From positions 1 to 20,216 of the IMG/VR virus record IMGVR_UViG_3300042541_001499: DNA of 20,216 nt. One strand, written 5' to 3'. The stretch is from a virus. The notes under the pieces are model-generated. The model saw nothing but the letters and a program-made list of their open reading frames with translations. It made no database searches and was not told the origin of the DNA. Position 1 is the stretch's first letter; each line of letters opens with the position of its first letter. This document shows positions 4,460 through 18,925 of this stretch, one piece after another. Both the position numbers and the translations under genes were made by a program.

Positions 4460-4915
4460 TTAGAGTTGTTTTTCCTGTGCGTAGGCTAGGAGCAGAAGAG
4501 CATCCGCAGTTTTTAGGGTCACCTTAAGATGTGGGTACCGCCGCTGCGCCTCGGCCTTGAGCTTGTTTTTGTGCTCGGTAGTGGTGGAATCTCCTTTGCT
4601 ACCAAGTCGAAAGTGCTTCTGCCAGTCTTGCGGCCTGACTAGGATGACAGGCATTCGGAGCGATACCGCGACGCCTCGCACGAGCCCGCAGTTAAACGCG
4701 AGAGGGAAGATGGTCGATCCCGGCAGCGCTTTGCCGACAAACTTCGGCACGTCCTCGATGATGCACTTGATGCCGGGCCTCATGCTGTAGAGCAGGCCGA
4801 TCTCCTCCGCGATTTCGGTATCGCTGCCCGGCATCCCCATACAGGAGGCGAGCGCGGCGCTGTCCCACGCGATCCCGCCGTTCACTCCTGGGTCGATTGC
4901 AATGTAACTGGTCAT
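4460..4915 (-). CDS. RuvC-like Holliday junction resolvase
   Basis: A 151-residue RNase H-fold endonuclease predicted to resolve four-way or branched DNA before packaging. It begins with IAIDPGVNGGIAW, the RuvC signature with the first catalytic Asp (D8) and a Gly-rich turn. A second acidic residue lies in CIIEDVP (E54), and a C-terminal TADALLLLAYA carries the last one (D138), followed by the usual hydrophobic helix. The length matches cellular and phage RuvC-type proteins. VILVRPQDWQKHF (about 90-102) is also typical of phage members. The start overlaps the stop of the upstream HTH gene (ATGA). Phages commonly keep such resolvases close to their terminase, as here. Confidence in fold and class is high; substrate preference is inferred. 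Confidence 0.87.
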   Translation of the reverse strand: MTSYIAIDPGVNGGIAWDSAALASCMGMPGSDTEIAEEIGLLYSMRPGIKCIIEDVPKFVGKALPGSTIFPLAFNCGLVRGVAVSLRMPVILVRPQDWQKHFRLGSKGDSTTTEHKNKLKAEAQRRYPHLKVTLKTADALLLLAYAQEKQL

Positions 4916-5328
4916 GATTTAGGTGCGTCTTGTTCGATGTGCTCCCATTTCGCATGGTGCACGGATTCGTAAATCTTCCGCTGCGGTTGTGGCCGCATCC
5001 CGTGCTTGGGTTTGAGGTGGAAGCTCTCCAGCGTTTTCTCCACCTTCTTGGAAAATGCCTGCTTGGAAATGCGGTGGCGCTTGGCGATCTGGTCCATAGA
5101 CTCCTCGGCCCGACCGATCAGCCCGTAGCAATAAGCGACCGCATCCAGCTCGACCATCGGAGTGGCTGAGTCGGCGATGTAGGCCAGCACGGCGCTGATG
5201 CCTTTCGCGTAGCTATAGTGGTCGAGGTCGCGCGCCTCTCGTTCGATCTGGAAACGCACGTACTCGGCTTTTACGATGTCGATGGCCTGCGCCCGGCTCA
5301 GATCCGCATGTTGCTTCCACCGCCGCAC
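4912..5328 (-). CDS. HTH (sigma region 4-like) protein heading the packaging block; likely 5'-truncated call
   Basis: A 138-residue protein with a helix-turn-helix near 77-101 (SMDQIAKRHRISKQAFSKKVEKTL), resembling sigma region 4 or small phage transcription factors. As first gene of the leftward packaging block it could control late transcription, but this is inference. The nearest usable start in frame is GTG 5328, with no SD. The frame continues upstream without a stop for about 28 codons with good coding character (VAAPEYVEAPEDILAERI), yet contains no ATG, GTG or TTG. A one-base change in the A5 run at 5386-5390 would join it to ATG 5435 (MTGSRHPDASTPTTQFF...), adding about 36 residues. 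The true gene may therefore begin at 5435 with a sequencing error, mutation or programmed slip. Confidence 0.72.
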   Translation of the reverse strand: MRRWKQHADLSRAQAIDIVKAEYVRFQIEREARDLDHYSYAKGISAVLAYIADSATPMVELDAVAYCYGLIGRAEESMDQIAKRHRISKQAFSKKVEKTLESFHLKPKHGMRPQPQRKIYESVHHAKWEHIEQDAPKS

Positions 5329-5476: not shown

Positions 5477-5534
5477 ACAGTGCAAATAATGCGCGCGAGG
5501 CGGAAACCTGCCTTTTATGACATGTTCAAGAGAT

Positions 5535-5710: not shown

Positions 5711-5738
5711 TTGACCGCATCCCCTATCAGCGTACAGT
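5711..5738 (+). promoter_or_regulatory. Promoter P1 (TTGACC-16-TACAGT)
   Basis: A -35 TTGACC (5711-5716) and a -10 TACAGT (5733-5738), separated by 16 bases that include ATCCCC. The same design recurs at 5971-5998 and 6330-6357, and with an unrelated spacer sequence at 19811-19838 on the minus strand. The ATG at 5748 is 10 bases from the end of the -10, so the message would have a leader of only a few bases. Confidence 0.7.
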
Positions 5739-5747
5739 CACCAGCTC

Positions 5748-5987
5748 ATGACCAAGACCACCACCACCACCACCGAGACGCTAGGACAAACGCTCATCTC
5801 AATCCGTCGCAAGTATGGACTCAGCCAATCGCAGTGCGCTCGACTCATCCCAGGCTTGCCGCTCAAGATGCTGCAAAAGTACGAGCAGCACGCGAGCGAG
5901 CCGCCTGTCTGGGTGCAGCTACTGCTCATTGATGCACTCATAAAAAAAGCGAAAAAGATTAAATCATCTGTTGACGCTATCCCCTGA
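5748..5987 (+). CDS. Cro-sized helix-turn-helix regulator
   Basis: A 79-residue protein: a Thr-rich start (MTKTTTTTTETLG), then an XRE/lambda-repressor-type HTH at about 13-50 (GQTLISIRRKYGLSQSQCARLIPGLPLKMLQKYEQ), and a basic C-terminal helix ending IKKAKKIKSSVDAIP. Size and position, first rightward gene across a divergent control region from the packaging block, fit a Cro/CII-like switch protein, likely acting on the nearby palindromes (inference). The Thr run comes from an ACC repeat after the start codon, part of the window's A/C-rich initiation style. P1 places the start almost at +1. The last codons (SVDAIP) double as the -35 and spacer of promoter P2. Confidence 0.72.
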   Translation: MTKTTTTTTETLGQTLISIRRKYGLSQSQCARLIPGLPLKMLQKYEQHASEPPVWVQLLLIDALIKKAKKIKSSVDAIP

Positions 5988-5998
5988 CAGAGTATGGT
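5971..5998 (+). promoter_or_regulatory. Promoter P2 (TTGACG-16-TATGGT)
   Basis: A -35 TTGACG (5971-5976), spacer CTATCCCCTGACAGAG and -10 TATGGT (5993-5998). It overlaps the 3' end of the HTH gene. The next ATG (6005) follows the -10 after only six bases (GACCAC), so transcription would begin at or next to the start codon and yield a leaderless message. The bases TGACCACATG at the start also occur at the minus-strand copy near 19803. Confidence 0.72.
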
Positions 5999-6004
5999 GA
6001 CCAC

Positions 6005-6268
6005 ATGCAAACAACACCACTCACCATCGGCCTCACAGTCCAGCACATCAAAACGCCCTCGCATTACGCTCCCCGCATCGGCCAGGTTATCGACATAAAA
6101 GACGGACGCGCTCAGGTCGATTGGGCAGGCTGGCCAAAAACATGGGTCAAGTTTGATTCGATCAAGGTGACTGACGACGGTTGGCGCGACACGCCCAACA
6201 TGCCGCACACAGCAGCCCGGACCGTTACGCTGCCAGACGGCACGGTCTACCGCGAGTACCGCAAATAA
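6005..6268 (+). CDS. Small KOW/SH3-like hypothetical protein
   Basis: An 87-residue protein. Residues about 9-52 (GLTVQHIKTPSHYAPRIGQVI...AQVDWAGWPKTWVKFDSIKV) read as a small beta barrel of the KOW/SH3/Tudor kind: a 'G..V' turn, a 'G.V..i..g.a.VdW' strand pair and an aromatic end. Such modules bind nucleic acid or protein, but no specific family is recognised. The start at ATG 6005 is set by promoter P2, which leaves essentially no 5' leader, and no SD is possible. It ends 61 bases before promoter P3. Confidence 0.62.
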   Translation: MQTTPLTIGLTVQHIKTPSHYAPRIGQVIDIKDGRAQVDWAGWPKTWVKFDSIKVTDDGWRDTPNMPHTAARTVTLPDGTVYREYRK

Positions 6269-6306
6269 GCGGACCCATCAAAGCCCTCCCGCTCCTTTTT
6301 ATTTAT

Positions 6307-6322
6307 TTGCAAAATAATGCAA
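6307..6322. promoter_or_regulatory. Candidate operator palindrome TTGCA-N6-TGCAA
   Basis: An inverted repeat in the AT-rich spacer, eight bases upstream of the P3 -35. It shares the TTGCA/TGCAA arms of the two palindromes at 5437-5476, which makes it a likely third site for the same regulator. Confidence 0.42.
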
Positions 6323-6329
6323 TTATCCG

Positions 6330-6357
6330 TTGACGCTATCCCCCGTTAGCGTATAGT
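6330..6357 (+). promoter_or_regulatory. Promoter P3 (TTGACG-16-TATAGT)
   Basis: A -35 TTGACG (6330-6335), spacer beginning CTATCCCC and -10 TATAGT (6352-6357). The first 14 bases are identical to P2. Unlike P1 and P2 the gene it serves starts at 6404, giving a leader of about 40 bases. An in-frame GTG at 6356 lies inside the -10 and cannot be the start of a message from this promoter. Confidence 0.7.
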
Positions 6358-6403
6358 GACGACACAGCCCGCCAATCACGGCAGGCGCAACCGACCGACC
6401 AAT

Positions 6404-6604
6404 ATGAATAACGAAATTACATCCGGCAACTACAAGGCAACAGTAAAGCAAATTCAAGACGGATACGGCGATACAGCCTTCCGCGTCATGGTGCTTTGCA
6501 TGACGGGGACGCACGAAGCAGGCGACGTGCTCTTCATGAAAAACTACGATACGGAACGCGCCGCAATGACCGCAGCACGTCGCGAACTGAAAAAGGCAGC
6601 ATAA
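6404..6604 (+). CDS. Small hypothetical protein
   Basis: A 66-residue protein, MNNEITSGNYKATVKQIQDG..., reading as a compact alpha/beta fold: strands at 10-17 and 25-33, then a helix DTERAAMTAARRELKKA at the end. No family is recognised. ATG 6404 is chosen because promoter P3 starts transcription near 6364. The leader (CCCGCCAATCACGGCAGGC...) has no SD. It is the third member of the short rightward block. Confidence 0.58.
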   Translation: MNNEITSGNYKATVKQIQDGYGDTAFRVMVLCMTGTHEAGDVLFMKNYDTERAAMTAARRELKKAA

Positions 6605-6965: not shown

Positions 6966-6999
6966 CCCCGTCAGCCTTTCAGGTTGGCGGGGTTTTTTT
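6966..6999 (+). terminator. Intrinsic terminator ending the rightward block
   Basis: An 11-bp stem, CCCCGTCAGCC paired with GGTTGGCGGGG (two G-T wobbles), a 5-base loop TTTCA, then seven Ts (6993-6999). It lies 31 bases after the last rightward gene. The stop codon of the opposing gene at 6979-7422 falls inside the hairpin. On the minus strand there is no T run right after the stem. Confidence 0.9.
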
Positions 7000-16776: not shown

Positions 16777-16940
16777 AAGCATTCGCAGAACTCTTCCTCG
16801 TCGCCTTTTCGGGTCAGCGGCTCCAGCGCGTGATCGGCCCACCAAGGCAGCGGGACAGTGCATCGACCGAGCGGAGAAAAGTCACTTTTCCAAAAGTTCA
16901 CGCAGTCGCTGCACCTTAGGGGTTGGGGTTGGTCACTCAT
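16761..16940 (-). CDS. Cysteine-register protein, copy A of a tandem pair
   Basis: A 59-residue protein, MSDQPQPLRCSDCVNFWKSD and onwards, ending GDEEEFCECFEPKL, with Cys at 10, 13, 27, 52 and 54. These match the downstream paralog position for position although the rest of the sequence has diverged. Likely a small metal-binding protein. ATG 16940 overlaps the upstream stop (ATGA). The last codons and stop lie in the 13-bp tandem repeat. Confidence 0.68.
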   Translation of the reverse strand: MSDQPQPLRCSDCVNFWKSDFSPLGRCTVPLPWWADHALEPLTRKGDEEEFCECFEPKL

Positions 16941-17155
16941 AACTGCGCATCTCGCACCTCCGTCTCGATCTTCAGAGCAACCCGCGCCACCTCAACCCAG
17001 CAAAACACGCTCACCTTGTTGAGCGGGTCGCACACGAAGTCCGCCCAGGTAGGTGTGGTCATGTTGTGGTGGCTGCGTGCTTCCTTCATATAGGCCGAGT
17101 AAAGGAGCCCGGCGTAGTTCATCAGTGCGTTGGAGTGTAGTGATTCGCTGTCCAT
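16937..17155 (-). CDS. Small hypothetical protein downstream of pentamer element 1
   Basis: A 72-residue protein, MDSESLHSNALMNYAGLLYS..., mostly helical, with TPTWADFVCDPLNKVSVFCW in the middle and an amphipathic C-terminal helix (VARVALKIETEVRDAQL). No family is recognised. ATG 17155 is chosen because it follows a pure CA-rich leader (CAACAACAACAAC). The frame stays open for 107 more codons upstream only because the pentamer element lacks stops; that Gly/Arg/Ala-rich part is not considered protein. Confidence 0.58.
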   Translation of the reverse strand: MDSESLHSNALMNYAGLLYSAYMKEARSHHNMTTPTWADFVCDPLNKVSVFCWVEVARVALKIETEVRDAQL

Positions 17156-17180
17156 GTTGTTGTTGTTGGTTTGTTGTTCT
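17156..17180 (-). promoter_or_regulatory. CA-rich translation leader after pentamer element 1
   Basis: On the minus strand: AGAACAACAAACCAACAACA followed by ACAAC, directly before the ATG at 17155. It has no SD and almost no G or T, so it should be unstructured. It occupies the same position relative to its element as the leader at 18639-18661. Confidence 0.55.
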
Positions 17181-17189
17181 TGCGGATGT

Positions 17190-17490
17190 GCCCGCCCATG
17201 TTCCTTGCCGTGCTCTTGCCACGCCGCGCCACGCCGGGCCCAGCCGCGCACTGCCTTGCCATATTCCATGCCGCGCCCTGCCTTGCCGAGCCACGCCTTG
17301 CCGAACCAGATTCCATGCCTTGCCGGGCCGAGCCGGGCCTCGCCTAGCCCCGCCATATTCCTTGCCGTGCTCATGCCGCGCCGGGCCCTGCCTTGCCATG
17401 CCGTGCCCCGCCGGTCCCTGCCAAAATCCATGCCGCGCCCGGCTATGCCCTGCCGAGCCTTGCCGTGCCCCGCCAAAATCCACGCGCCCC
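17190..17490. repeat. Pentamer element 1 (degenerate NNGCC array, about 300 bp)
   Basis: The plus strand is a near-continuous run of 5-base units ending GCC (TTGCC, ATGCC, GCGCC, CTGCC, GAGCC...). It is broken every eight to eleven units by A/T-rich 7-mers (ATATTCC at 17262, AGATTCC at 17308, ATATTCC at 17354, AAAATCC at 17423 and 17474). The left end is GCCCGCCCATGTTCCTTGCC; the right end is CGCCAAAATCCACGCGCCCC. Both ends match element 2 closely. It sits between the stop at 17530 and the CA leader at 17156. No frame looks like real protein. On the transcribed strand it reads GGC-rich (GGCAAGGCAGGGC). Confidence 0.85.
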
Positions 17491-17529
17491 AAAGGCACCA
17501 CTCCGAATAATGCCTCCGGGGTTGTCATT

Positions 17530-17958
17530 TTAGTCGATCTCCTTTGGTGCGGTCAATGCGGCCAGCTTCATGCGGATCGGCAGCGTTGCCAGATGCTGTT
17601 GCAGCTTGCGGTTCTCTCCGGTCAGGCGGTTGGTGTCTGTTGTCATTGCCAGACTGCTCGCCCGGAAAATCATGCGCTTGCCGTAAGTGACCTTATTGGC
17701 GGCCACTGTAATCCGCCGGTCCGGATCGGCTAGGCGGTATCCTTCGCGTGGCTCGCACACGAGGTAGATGTTGCGCTCTCGCATCAGCCGGTTGCGGAAT
17801 GCGCCCATGACGGACTGGAAGCGTTTGCTGGTGCGATCGACGCCAATGCTCTCGGCAATCGAGTCGTAAGAGAAAAGGTCTCCTTCCTGAAGTGGCTTGA
17901 TCGCATCCATCAGCTTGTTTACGTCGATCTTGGTGGGAATGCCTGTGACTAGGGTCAT
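17530..17958 (-). CDS. Predicted DNA-binding (winged-helix-like) hypothetical protein
   Basis: A 142-residue protein. Residues 29-80 (FSYDSIAESIGVDRTSKRFQ...RNIYLVCEPREGYRLADPD) read as a helix-turn-helix followed by a beta wing ending 'GYRL', as in winged-helix DNA binders. The C-terminal half is helical with an RxxGENRKLQQHLA stretch. No specific family is recognised. ATG 17958 follows CTTAACCATTACCCAC (A/C-rich) with no SD, 11 bases after the upstream gene. Downstream, ATG 17528 opens a frame (MTTPEALFGVVPLGR) that runs straight into pentamer element 1. Confidence 0.6.
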   Translation of the reverse strand: MTLVTGIPTKIDVNKLMDAIKPLQEGDLFSYDSIAESIGVDRTSKRFQSVMGAFRNRLMRERNIYLVCEPREGYRLADPDRRITVAANKVTYGKRMIFRASSLAMTTDTNRLTGENRKLQQHLATLPIRMKLAALTAPKEID

Positions 17959-17969
17959 GTGGGTAATGG

Positions 17970-18638
17970 TTAAGGAAGTTTCGTGATGGTTGCTGTGAAG
18001 CGCCCAAACTGGCCGGGTGTCGGTGACGATGGCCGCCAATCGCCCACTCCGCAAAAGCAGCCGGCGAAGGTCAGGATGTGCTGAAGCATCTCCTGCGTGA
18101 TGCTTGGATCGACTACGGTGAGCGTTCCGCTGGCTGACCAGTTGGAGAAGCGCGGACGCACCCGGACGTGTTTGGATGTGCCGACCCGAGCGCGCTTCAC
18201 GAAGAGAACAAACCCTGCCTCCTGTGCCGCCTTCTCGTGCTCCTCGAACTCGCTCTCTTTAACCATGGCAAGAAGCGCGTTGCTGTCGATGTTGCGGCCA
18301 TCGGCCAGGGTGATCGGCCAGCCGATCTCATTGCAGATGATGCCGGACTGCGTTTGGGCCTTCATCGATCCCCGGCCTGTCGGCGCCGAGCACTTCTTTC
18401 CGCCGTCCCGCAGCATCGACATGATGTTGTCGCTGTCGATGACGACCTGCCCGCCGGACGTGTACAAGCACGAAAGCCAGCTCCATGCGGGTGAGCGGTC
18501 GTCTCCGGCCACTGACATTTTTTTGTTAGCAGGATCTTTTTGCCATGCGCGTGTCTTGGCACCGAAATCAATGTTGTCTCTGTGCATCAGGAGGTCTGTG
18601 GCTCCTGTTAGTGTGACTGCGTAGTTTTTCTGGTACAT
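17970..18638 (-). CDS. Conserved-looking phage protein with a GxGDWRP...GRF C-terminus
   Basis: A 222-residue protein, MYQKNYAVTLTGATDLLMHR..., ending with GCFCGVGDWRPSSPTPGQFG and RFTATITKLP. That Gly-rich 'G-G-WRP--P--G-FGRF' ending recurs, as far as I recall, in phage proteins of unknown role. The overall order (beta start 'itG..plLmh', central basic strands, Gly-rich end) is reminiscent of RAMP/Cas7-type folds, but that is speculation. It begins after a CA-rich leader downstream of pentamer element 2, and is followed by the winged-helix-like gene. Confidence 0.62.
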   Translation of the reverse strand: MYQKNYAVTLTGATDLLMHRDNIDFGAKTRAWQKDPANKKMSVAGDDRSPAWSWLSCLYTSGGQVVIDSDNIMSMLRDGGKKCSAPTGRGSMKAQTQSGIICNEIGWPITLADGRNIDSNALLAMVKESEFEEHEKAAQEAGFVLFVKRARVGTSKHVRVRPRFSNWSASGTLTVVDPSITQEMLQHILTFAGCFCGVGDWRPSSPTPGQFGRFTATITKLP

Positions 18639-18661
18639 GTTTTTAGTGTTGTTGTGTTGTT
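18639..18661 (-). promoter_or_regulatory. CA-rich translation leader after pentamer element 2
   Basis: On the minus strand: AACAACACAACAACACTAAA followed by AAC, then the ATG at 18638. It has no SD and no G. The CA-rich character continues further upstream (AACCAGCAAACACACAAACA) up to the end of element 2. Confidence 0.55.
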
Positions 18662-18699
18662 ACCGTGTTCCGTGTGTTTGTGTGTTTGCTGGTTGTGAC

Positions 18700-18836
18700 G
18701 CCAGCCCAAGTTCCTTGCCCGGCCAGGCCCGGCCCAGCCAAGCCGTGCCACGCCTCGCCTAAATCCTTGCCGCGCTCAGGCCTTGCACGCGCCGCGCCTC
18801 GCCGCGCCACGCCTCGCCAAATTCCAAGCGTTCCCA
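18700..18836. repeat. Pentamer element 2 (degenerate NNGCC array, about 137 bp)
   Basis: The same construction as element 1 but shorter: NNGCC units on the plus strand broken by TAAATCC (18759) and AAATTCC (18819). The left end GCCAGCCCAAGTTCCTTGCC matches element 1 at 18 of 20 bases; the right end (CGCCAAATTCCAAGCGTTCC) corresponds to that of element 1 with small changes. It lies between the stop at 18926 and the CA-rich leader of the gene at 18638. The remainder of that gap (18837-18925) shows no gene. Confidence 0.82.
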
Positions 18837-18925
18837 AAATTATTCCCGGTCGGCGGATAGCCAGAGCGCCGGGTCGCTCGCAATATAGGAGGCCCGCCCC
18901 CTCGGCCTTGTGGCACTCTCGCCGT

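Follow-up and report, generated by a model that had tools for sequence, protein, structure and literature searches.

Three promoters of one design stand close together in a viral genome, and their spacers are conserved beyond what sigma-70 requires. What reads the additional letters, and what do these promoters control? The window, by which we mean the whole stretch of DNA analyzed, is a linear IMG/VR viral contig of 20,216 bp with genes for a GpA-type terminase, a RuvC-like resolvase, a Sak4-like protein and a primase-helicase. Nearly all of its genes point leftward; the block at 5.7-6.9 kb that holds the promoters points rightward, and a terminator-like stem (CCCCGTCAGCC/GGTTGGCGGGG) followed by a T-run, recognized by eye at 6966-6999 and absent from the scan list, ends this block. 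By terminase, the nearest named relative is Verrucomicrobia phage P8625, and because the identity is just 24%, a host among the Verrucomicrobiota is a guess. Genome contigs were scanned with the terminase and with the helix-turn-helix (HTH) profile, and neither scan yielded relatives, which leaves P8625 as the only hint of a host. Neither the control region nor the HTH protein matched anything in the GenBank phage collection. Among related contigs, at least nine have GGTTTCCG, the reverse complement of window 5501-5508, as their exact beginning; this hints at a fixed genome end, perhaps cos, some 200 bp away from P1. Elsewhere, imperfect repeats at 16937-18840 (about 17.1-17.5 kb and 18.6-18.8 kb) contain low-complexity frames of the GKARQGIAGRG / RRGMARQGPARHE kind.

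The earlier note had described three rightward promoters with TTGAC, a 16-bp spacer containing ATCCCC and TAYRGT-like -10s, and we find these at 5711, 5971 and 6330, with TACAGT, TATGGT and TATAGT as the -10 hexamers (Table 1). The exact motif TTGACNNNATCCCC (TTGAC-N3-ATCCCC, a 14-mer) occurs three times in the window, always on the same rightward strand and within 633 bp. The reversed control pattern gives no occurrence, and arithmetic on the 11 fixed bases sets the chance expectation at about 0.01 for both strands. P1 to P3 are confirmed as real and far from chance. With 9, 9 and 10 of 12 positions matching the consensus (TTGACA and TATAAT), respectively, and spacers of 16 bp, inside the usual 15-19 bp, all three have the hexamers and spacing of sigma-70-type promoters, from which transcription would begin 6-9 nt after the -10. 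The spacer core common to them is ATCCCC, while CTATCCCC is limited to P2 and P3, as had been noted. P2 had also been placed within the last codons of the HTH gene; this is accurate for the -35 and most of the spacer, but the -10 falls after the stop (5987). The overlap with coding sequence is incidental, since the HTH frame closes ahead of P2 in three relatives (G004, G006 and G007).

Table 1. Features of the rightward control region, with positions in the window.
Feature	Position	Strand	Remarks
P1, promoter of the HTH gene	5711-5738	+	-35 TTGACC 5711-5716; 16-bp spacer; -10 TACAGT 5733-5738
Predicted operator in P1	5719-5735		Centre 5727, 6 bp upstream of -10; weak dyad; placed from geometry
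Single-domain HTH protein, 79 aa	5748-5987	+	Putative autorepressor, Aca10/HigA-2-like (profile matches, four-helix model); predicted near-leaderless start
P2, overlaps 3' end of the HTH gene	5971-5998	+	-35 TTGACG 5971-5976; 16-bp spacer; -10 TATGGT 5993-5998
Predicted operator in P2	5979-5995		Centre 5987; placed from dyad geometry
Small gene directly at P2, 87 aa	6005-6268	+	No confident family; 6 nt from -10; homologue in G003/G005 second in P2 operon
P3	6330-6357	+	-35 TTGACG 6330-6335; 16-bp spacer; -10 TATAGT 6352-6357
Predicted operator in P3	6338-6354		Centre 6346; placed from dyad geometry
Leader hairpin of P3 message	6367-6386	+	Loop AATCAC; conserved downstream of P3-type promoters; z -1.84, weak alone
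Small gene of P3 message, 66 aa	6404-6604	+	No known family; also in G002 and G022
Putative membrane protein, 87 aa	6671-6934	+	Last and conserved gene of the block; no PHROG match

When 2.9 million viral contigs were scanned for the extended motif, 10 stretches contained it, eight of them from relatives of the window phage. The other two (L004 and L005) were set aside as chance matches, since the motif neighbourhood of the family is missing there and the hits apparently lie within coding sequence. Copies in the relatives were counted from the contig scan, a scan with a weight matrix and a search through 34 records of the family. One copy is present in G001, two in each of G004, G006 and G007, and three in each of G002, G003 and G005; in these seven relatives the motif is confined to this locus, even where the contig extends to 36.9-40.3 kb; the eighth (L008) is a short contig with P1 at its end. 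Conservation around P1 begins at the -35. In five relatives (G001, G002, G004, G006, G007) the 37-bp P1 motif is 84-89% identical to that of the window, and the 40 bp upstream of it are 15-30% identical, which is the chance level. G001 keeps P1 and gave no match to the HTH protein, so this phage appears to have lost the gene and retained its promoter. G017 likewise showed no HTH match in its contig, and no such promoter was seen in the 2.2-kb right end that was examined.

The stretch from the HTH gene to the conserved putative membrane protein contains a varying set of small genes, from none to several depending on the phage, and none of those tested matched a PHROG. The same promoter together with ATGCAAACAACA precedes two unrelated genes, one beginning MQTTPLT (G000/G002) and the other MQTTSHT (G003/G005). 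In the window, the second gene has its MQTT start directly behind P2; in G003 and G005 the homologue of this gene comes second in the operon and has a start of its own, and the promoter with MQTT precedes another gene. Thus, promoter and first codons move together. This mobility, and the identity in letters of P2 and P3 of G003 from -35 to -10, would suit an explanation in which the promoters are recent duplicates or recombination cassettes whose spacers agree by common descent and gene conversion, with no additional factor involved. We consider this unlikely, as conservation stops at the -35 with unrelated DNA flanking it, and as a dyad recurs at an unchanged centre in the diverged promoters described below although their letters differ, which descent alone would not give.

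One promoter per gene and leaderless or near-leaderless messages had also been proposed. The geometry of P1-type (7-9 nt) and P2 (6 nt) promoters agrees with this, and the start codons are where the earlier note put them, 9 nt (ATG 5748) and 6 nt (ATG 6005) after the -10. P3 departs from it, with 46 nt and a hairpin before its ATG at 6404. The P1-type gap is 9 nt apart from 8 in G012 and 7 in G014, and three pyrimidines precede the ATG in all 14 phages; this spacing would fit a transcript starting at or just before the A of the ATG. In six cases, involving three different proteins, the distance between a P2-type promoter and the ATG is exactly 6 nt. At other P2/P3-type sites a hairpin, GCCYGCC-AATCAC-GGCAGGC or a variant of it, is followed by CAATATG about 45 nt further on. 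Shine-Dalgarno-like stretches precede only a few of the 34 frames examined in the window by a mechanical list. Such sequences are thus rare across the phage, which makes the short leaders less special, weak leaders being general here.

The nature of the additional spacer conservation emerged from more diverged phages. Seven further members of the family encode HTH homologues (37-48% identical) and lack the ATCCCC motif. In each of them one promoter-like sequence lies 7-9 nt ahead of the ATG of the HTH gene and another follows that gene, with spacers of 16-17 bp but other letters; P1 of G025, which has a poor -35, is the sole exception. Dyads are found in these promoters, for example GTACGCC-AAT-GGCGTAC in G010 and ATACCC-ATTTA-GGGTAT in P1 of G014. 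When the dyad score was calculated over all centres, just one peak recurred in every set; it lies 6 bp upstream of the -10 (-6.0), with values of 0.68 for close-family P2/P3, 0.65 for divergent P2 and 0.48 for divergent P1, most other centres scoring about 0.22. At this centre the divergent P2 sites show 35 of 49 pairs versus 12.1 +/- 3.0 after shuffling, and none of 20,000 shuffles reached 35. This significance is overstated, because inspection by eye had also pointed to the centre in some divergent sites and because the phages, being related, are not independent. Omitting pairs that overlap the -10 leaves 20 of 28, against 7.3 in shuffled sequences. The excess conservation is a dyad at a fixed place within the spacer. 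It is stronger in P2 and P3 and weak in P1, where close-family sites have 3-5 of 10 pairs. A shorter inverted repeat, CTATC-N4-GATAG centred at -9.5, scored 0.65 in the close family and only 0.25 in the divergent phages, and was dropped.

The letters of the spacer also travel with the phage's version of the HTH gene. P1 and P2 of the same phage agree at 72 of 112 spacer positions, versus 58.3 when partners are permuted (a fraction of 4e-4 of all permutations; 0.0016 without G022), a matching driven mainly by G000, G021 and G025. Copying between promoters could contribute in part, and this matching is what a shared, phage-specific binding protein would predict. From phage to phage, the dyad covaries only modestly (fraction 0.0125 for P2 and 0.22 for P1). 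The earlier note had suggested a further bound factor as one reason for the conserved spacers; with the dyad at its fixed place and the letters varying with the local gene, that factor is very probably the HTH protein. Four distant HTH relatives (L128-L131) were left out of the significance tests. L130 (also L131) and L129 carry TTGACTTTTATCCCCCAATGGGGTATAAT and TTGACAAACTACACCCACAGGTGTATAAT, respectively, downstream of the HTH gene, with dyads in the spacer of a promoter; the centre in L129 fits -6.5 better than -6, which is why these relatives were excluded.

The HTH family comprises proteins of 65-85 aa with invariant Q27, E46, P52, P53 and W55. A profile search of the HTH protein returned HigA-2 as best match (2.1e-5), followed by Aca10 (PDB 7XI5; 1.3e-4), a repressor of an anti-CRISPR operon, Aca3 (0.055) and Aca2 (0.15). 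The structure model is a four-helix HTH with a mean pLDDT of 77. Foldseek gave no match to this model at E <= 0.001, and its top ranks were C.BclI, P2 C and MqsA, which have XRE-type folds. Q22 of Aca10 aligns with the invariant Q27, whereas the critical R44 of Aca10 is without a conserved counterpart. In its apparent mode of action the protein resembles the Aca proteins, families of anti-CRISPR operon repressors (PMC9410906), and its identity as an Aca is itself putative.

We think it likely that P1, P2 and P3 are sigma-70-type early promoters, that a small autorepressor encoded by the phage itself recognizes operators within them, and that each promoter drives a small, exchangeable gene. Host RNA polymerase alone would fire the three promoters early in infection, producing the HTH protein and the small accessory proteins. 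A dimer of the HTH protein made from P1 would then bind the imperfect dyad that lies in each spacer and overlaps the -10; as the protein accumulates, it would occlude the promoters and silence the gene that encodes it, at the weaker dyad of P1, together with the accessory genes, at the stronger dyads of P2 and P3. Promoter and operator, sometimes with the first codons, would move between phages as a cassette, bringing different small genes under the same repressor. Counting against this reading are the weak P1 dyads of the close family, the modest covariation, the possible copying between promoters, the relatedness of the phages, the non-conserved residue opposite R44 of Aca10, and G001, where P1 persists although no HTH match was found.

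The same dyad might instead bind an activator, or the HTH protein might activate P2 and P3. MerR-type activators bind in the promoter spacer, and the -10s TACAGT and TATGGT and the sixth base of the -35 depart from consensus, as would befit activated promoters. MerR promoters have spacers of 19-20 bp, whereas those seen here, at 16-17 bp, are optimal without distortion of the DNA; sites overlapping the -10 usually occlude polymerase, and the relatives that have been solved (Aca10, Aca2 and HigA) act as repressors. Activation is thus improbable in our judgement, and a dyad over spacer and -10 in a promoter of normal spacer length points to repression rather than to MerR-like activation. We give still less credence to a reader encoded by the phage, in the form of a sigma-like or late regulator. 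The candidate would be a 138-aa leftward protein at 4912-5328(-), which adjoins the control region and P1; by eye it has a stretch resembling the HTH of sigma region 4, and it has no confident family match. Such a reader is very improbable, as the hexamers are near the sigma-70 consensus and the variation between phages tracks the local HTH gene. Autorepression by the HTH protein remains our preferred reading.

The dyad, the Aca/HigA-like character of the HTH protein, the cassette swapping and the phage-wide rarity of Shine-Dalgarno sequences were absent from the earlier note. As a speculation drawn from the analogy with Aca operons, the small genes perhaps serve anti-defence. A tentative and rather doubtful extension sees the locus as an anti-defence island in uncultured phages whose hosts are probably Verrucomicrobiota. 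An Aca-like repressor would here preside over several separately promoted, freely exchanged small genes directed against host defences, and the portable unit would be the operator-promoter with its leaderless start codon. If so, any gene landing behind this unit would come under pulse control. If our preferred reading is right, the Aca-type logic of early firing and self-silencing would reach beyond single operons, to a small regulon of separately promoted, exchangeable genes. The family would then also offer a natural series of repressor-operator pairs in fixed geometry, from which recognition rules could be worked out, and its sequence could serve as a tag when candidate anti-defence genes are sought in uncultured phages.

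Several known systems resemble this one. The start-associated sequences of cluster K mycobacteriophages are likewise a repeated phage motif just upstream of the starts of different genes, about half having an inverted repeat and the consensus differing between phage groups; as described, they occur in many copies along the genome and no linked HTH gene is identified (PMC3203893). Cro/CI-type and P2 C immunity repressors share the XRE-type fold (P2 C at Foldseek rank 2, non-significant) and control several phage promoters. Unlike them, the present protein has no peptidase domain and no genetic switch was seen. A PF00589 search of 12 family contigs, which covered tyrosine integrases, gave no such integrase that would mark the immunity region of a temperate phage. 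Antitoxins autorepress through palindromic operators, and HigA-2 is the best profile match for the HTH domain. In contrast to HigBA and MqsRA, the protein here consists of the HTH domain only, the genes that follow have separate promoters, and no RelE/HigB-like toxin adjoins it, the neighbours having no match to a toxin family. Shared with the Aca repressors are a four-helix HTH protein of 65-79 aa, a strong sigma-70-like promoter, small variable neighbour genes, and an inverted repeat placed between the -35 and the -10 of the core promoter and extending into the latter. The Aca10 operator ATACGCTCATTGAGCGTAT lies inside a TTGCAA-N16-TATTCT promoter and overlaps its -10 (PMC9410881). By our count its centre is 7 bp upstream of the -10, so that the operators here are centred 1 bp nearer the -10, with arms 2 bp closer together. 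The Aca10 half-site AGCGTAT recurs in P3, where it overlaps the -10, and as AGCGTAC in P1. The phage system differs from the Aca operons in having no known acr gene and no conserved equivalent of R44, in its predicted near-leaderless starts, and in its layout: the HTH gene comes first rather than last, and there are two or three separate promoters where the Aca operons have one.
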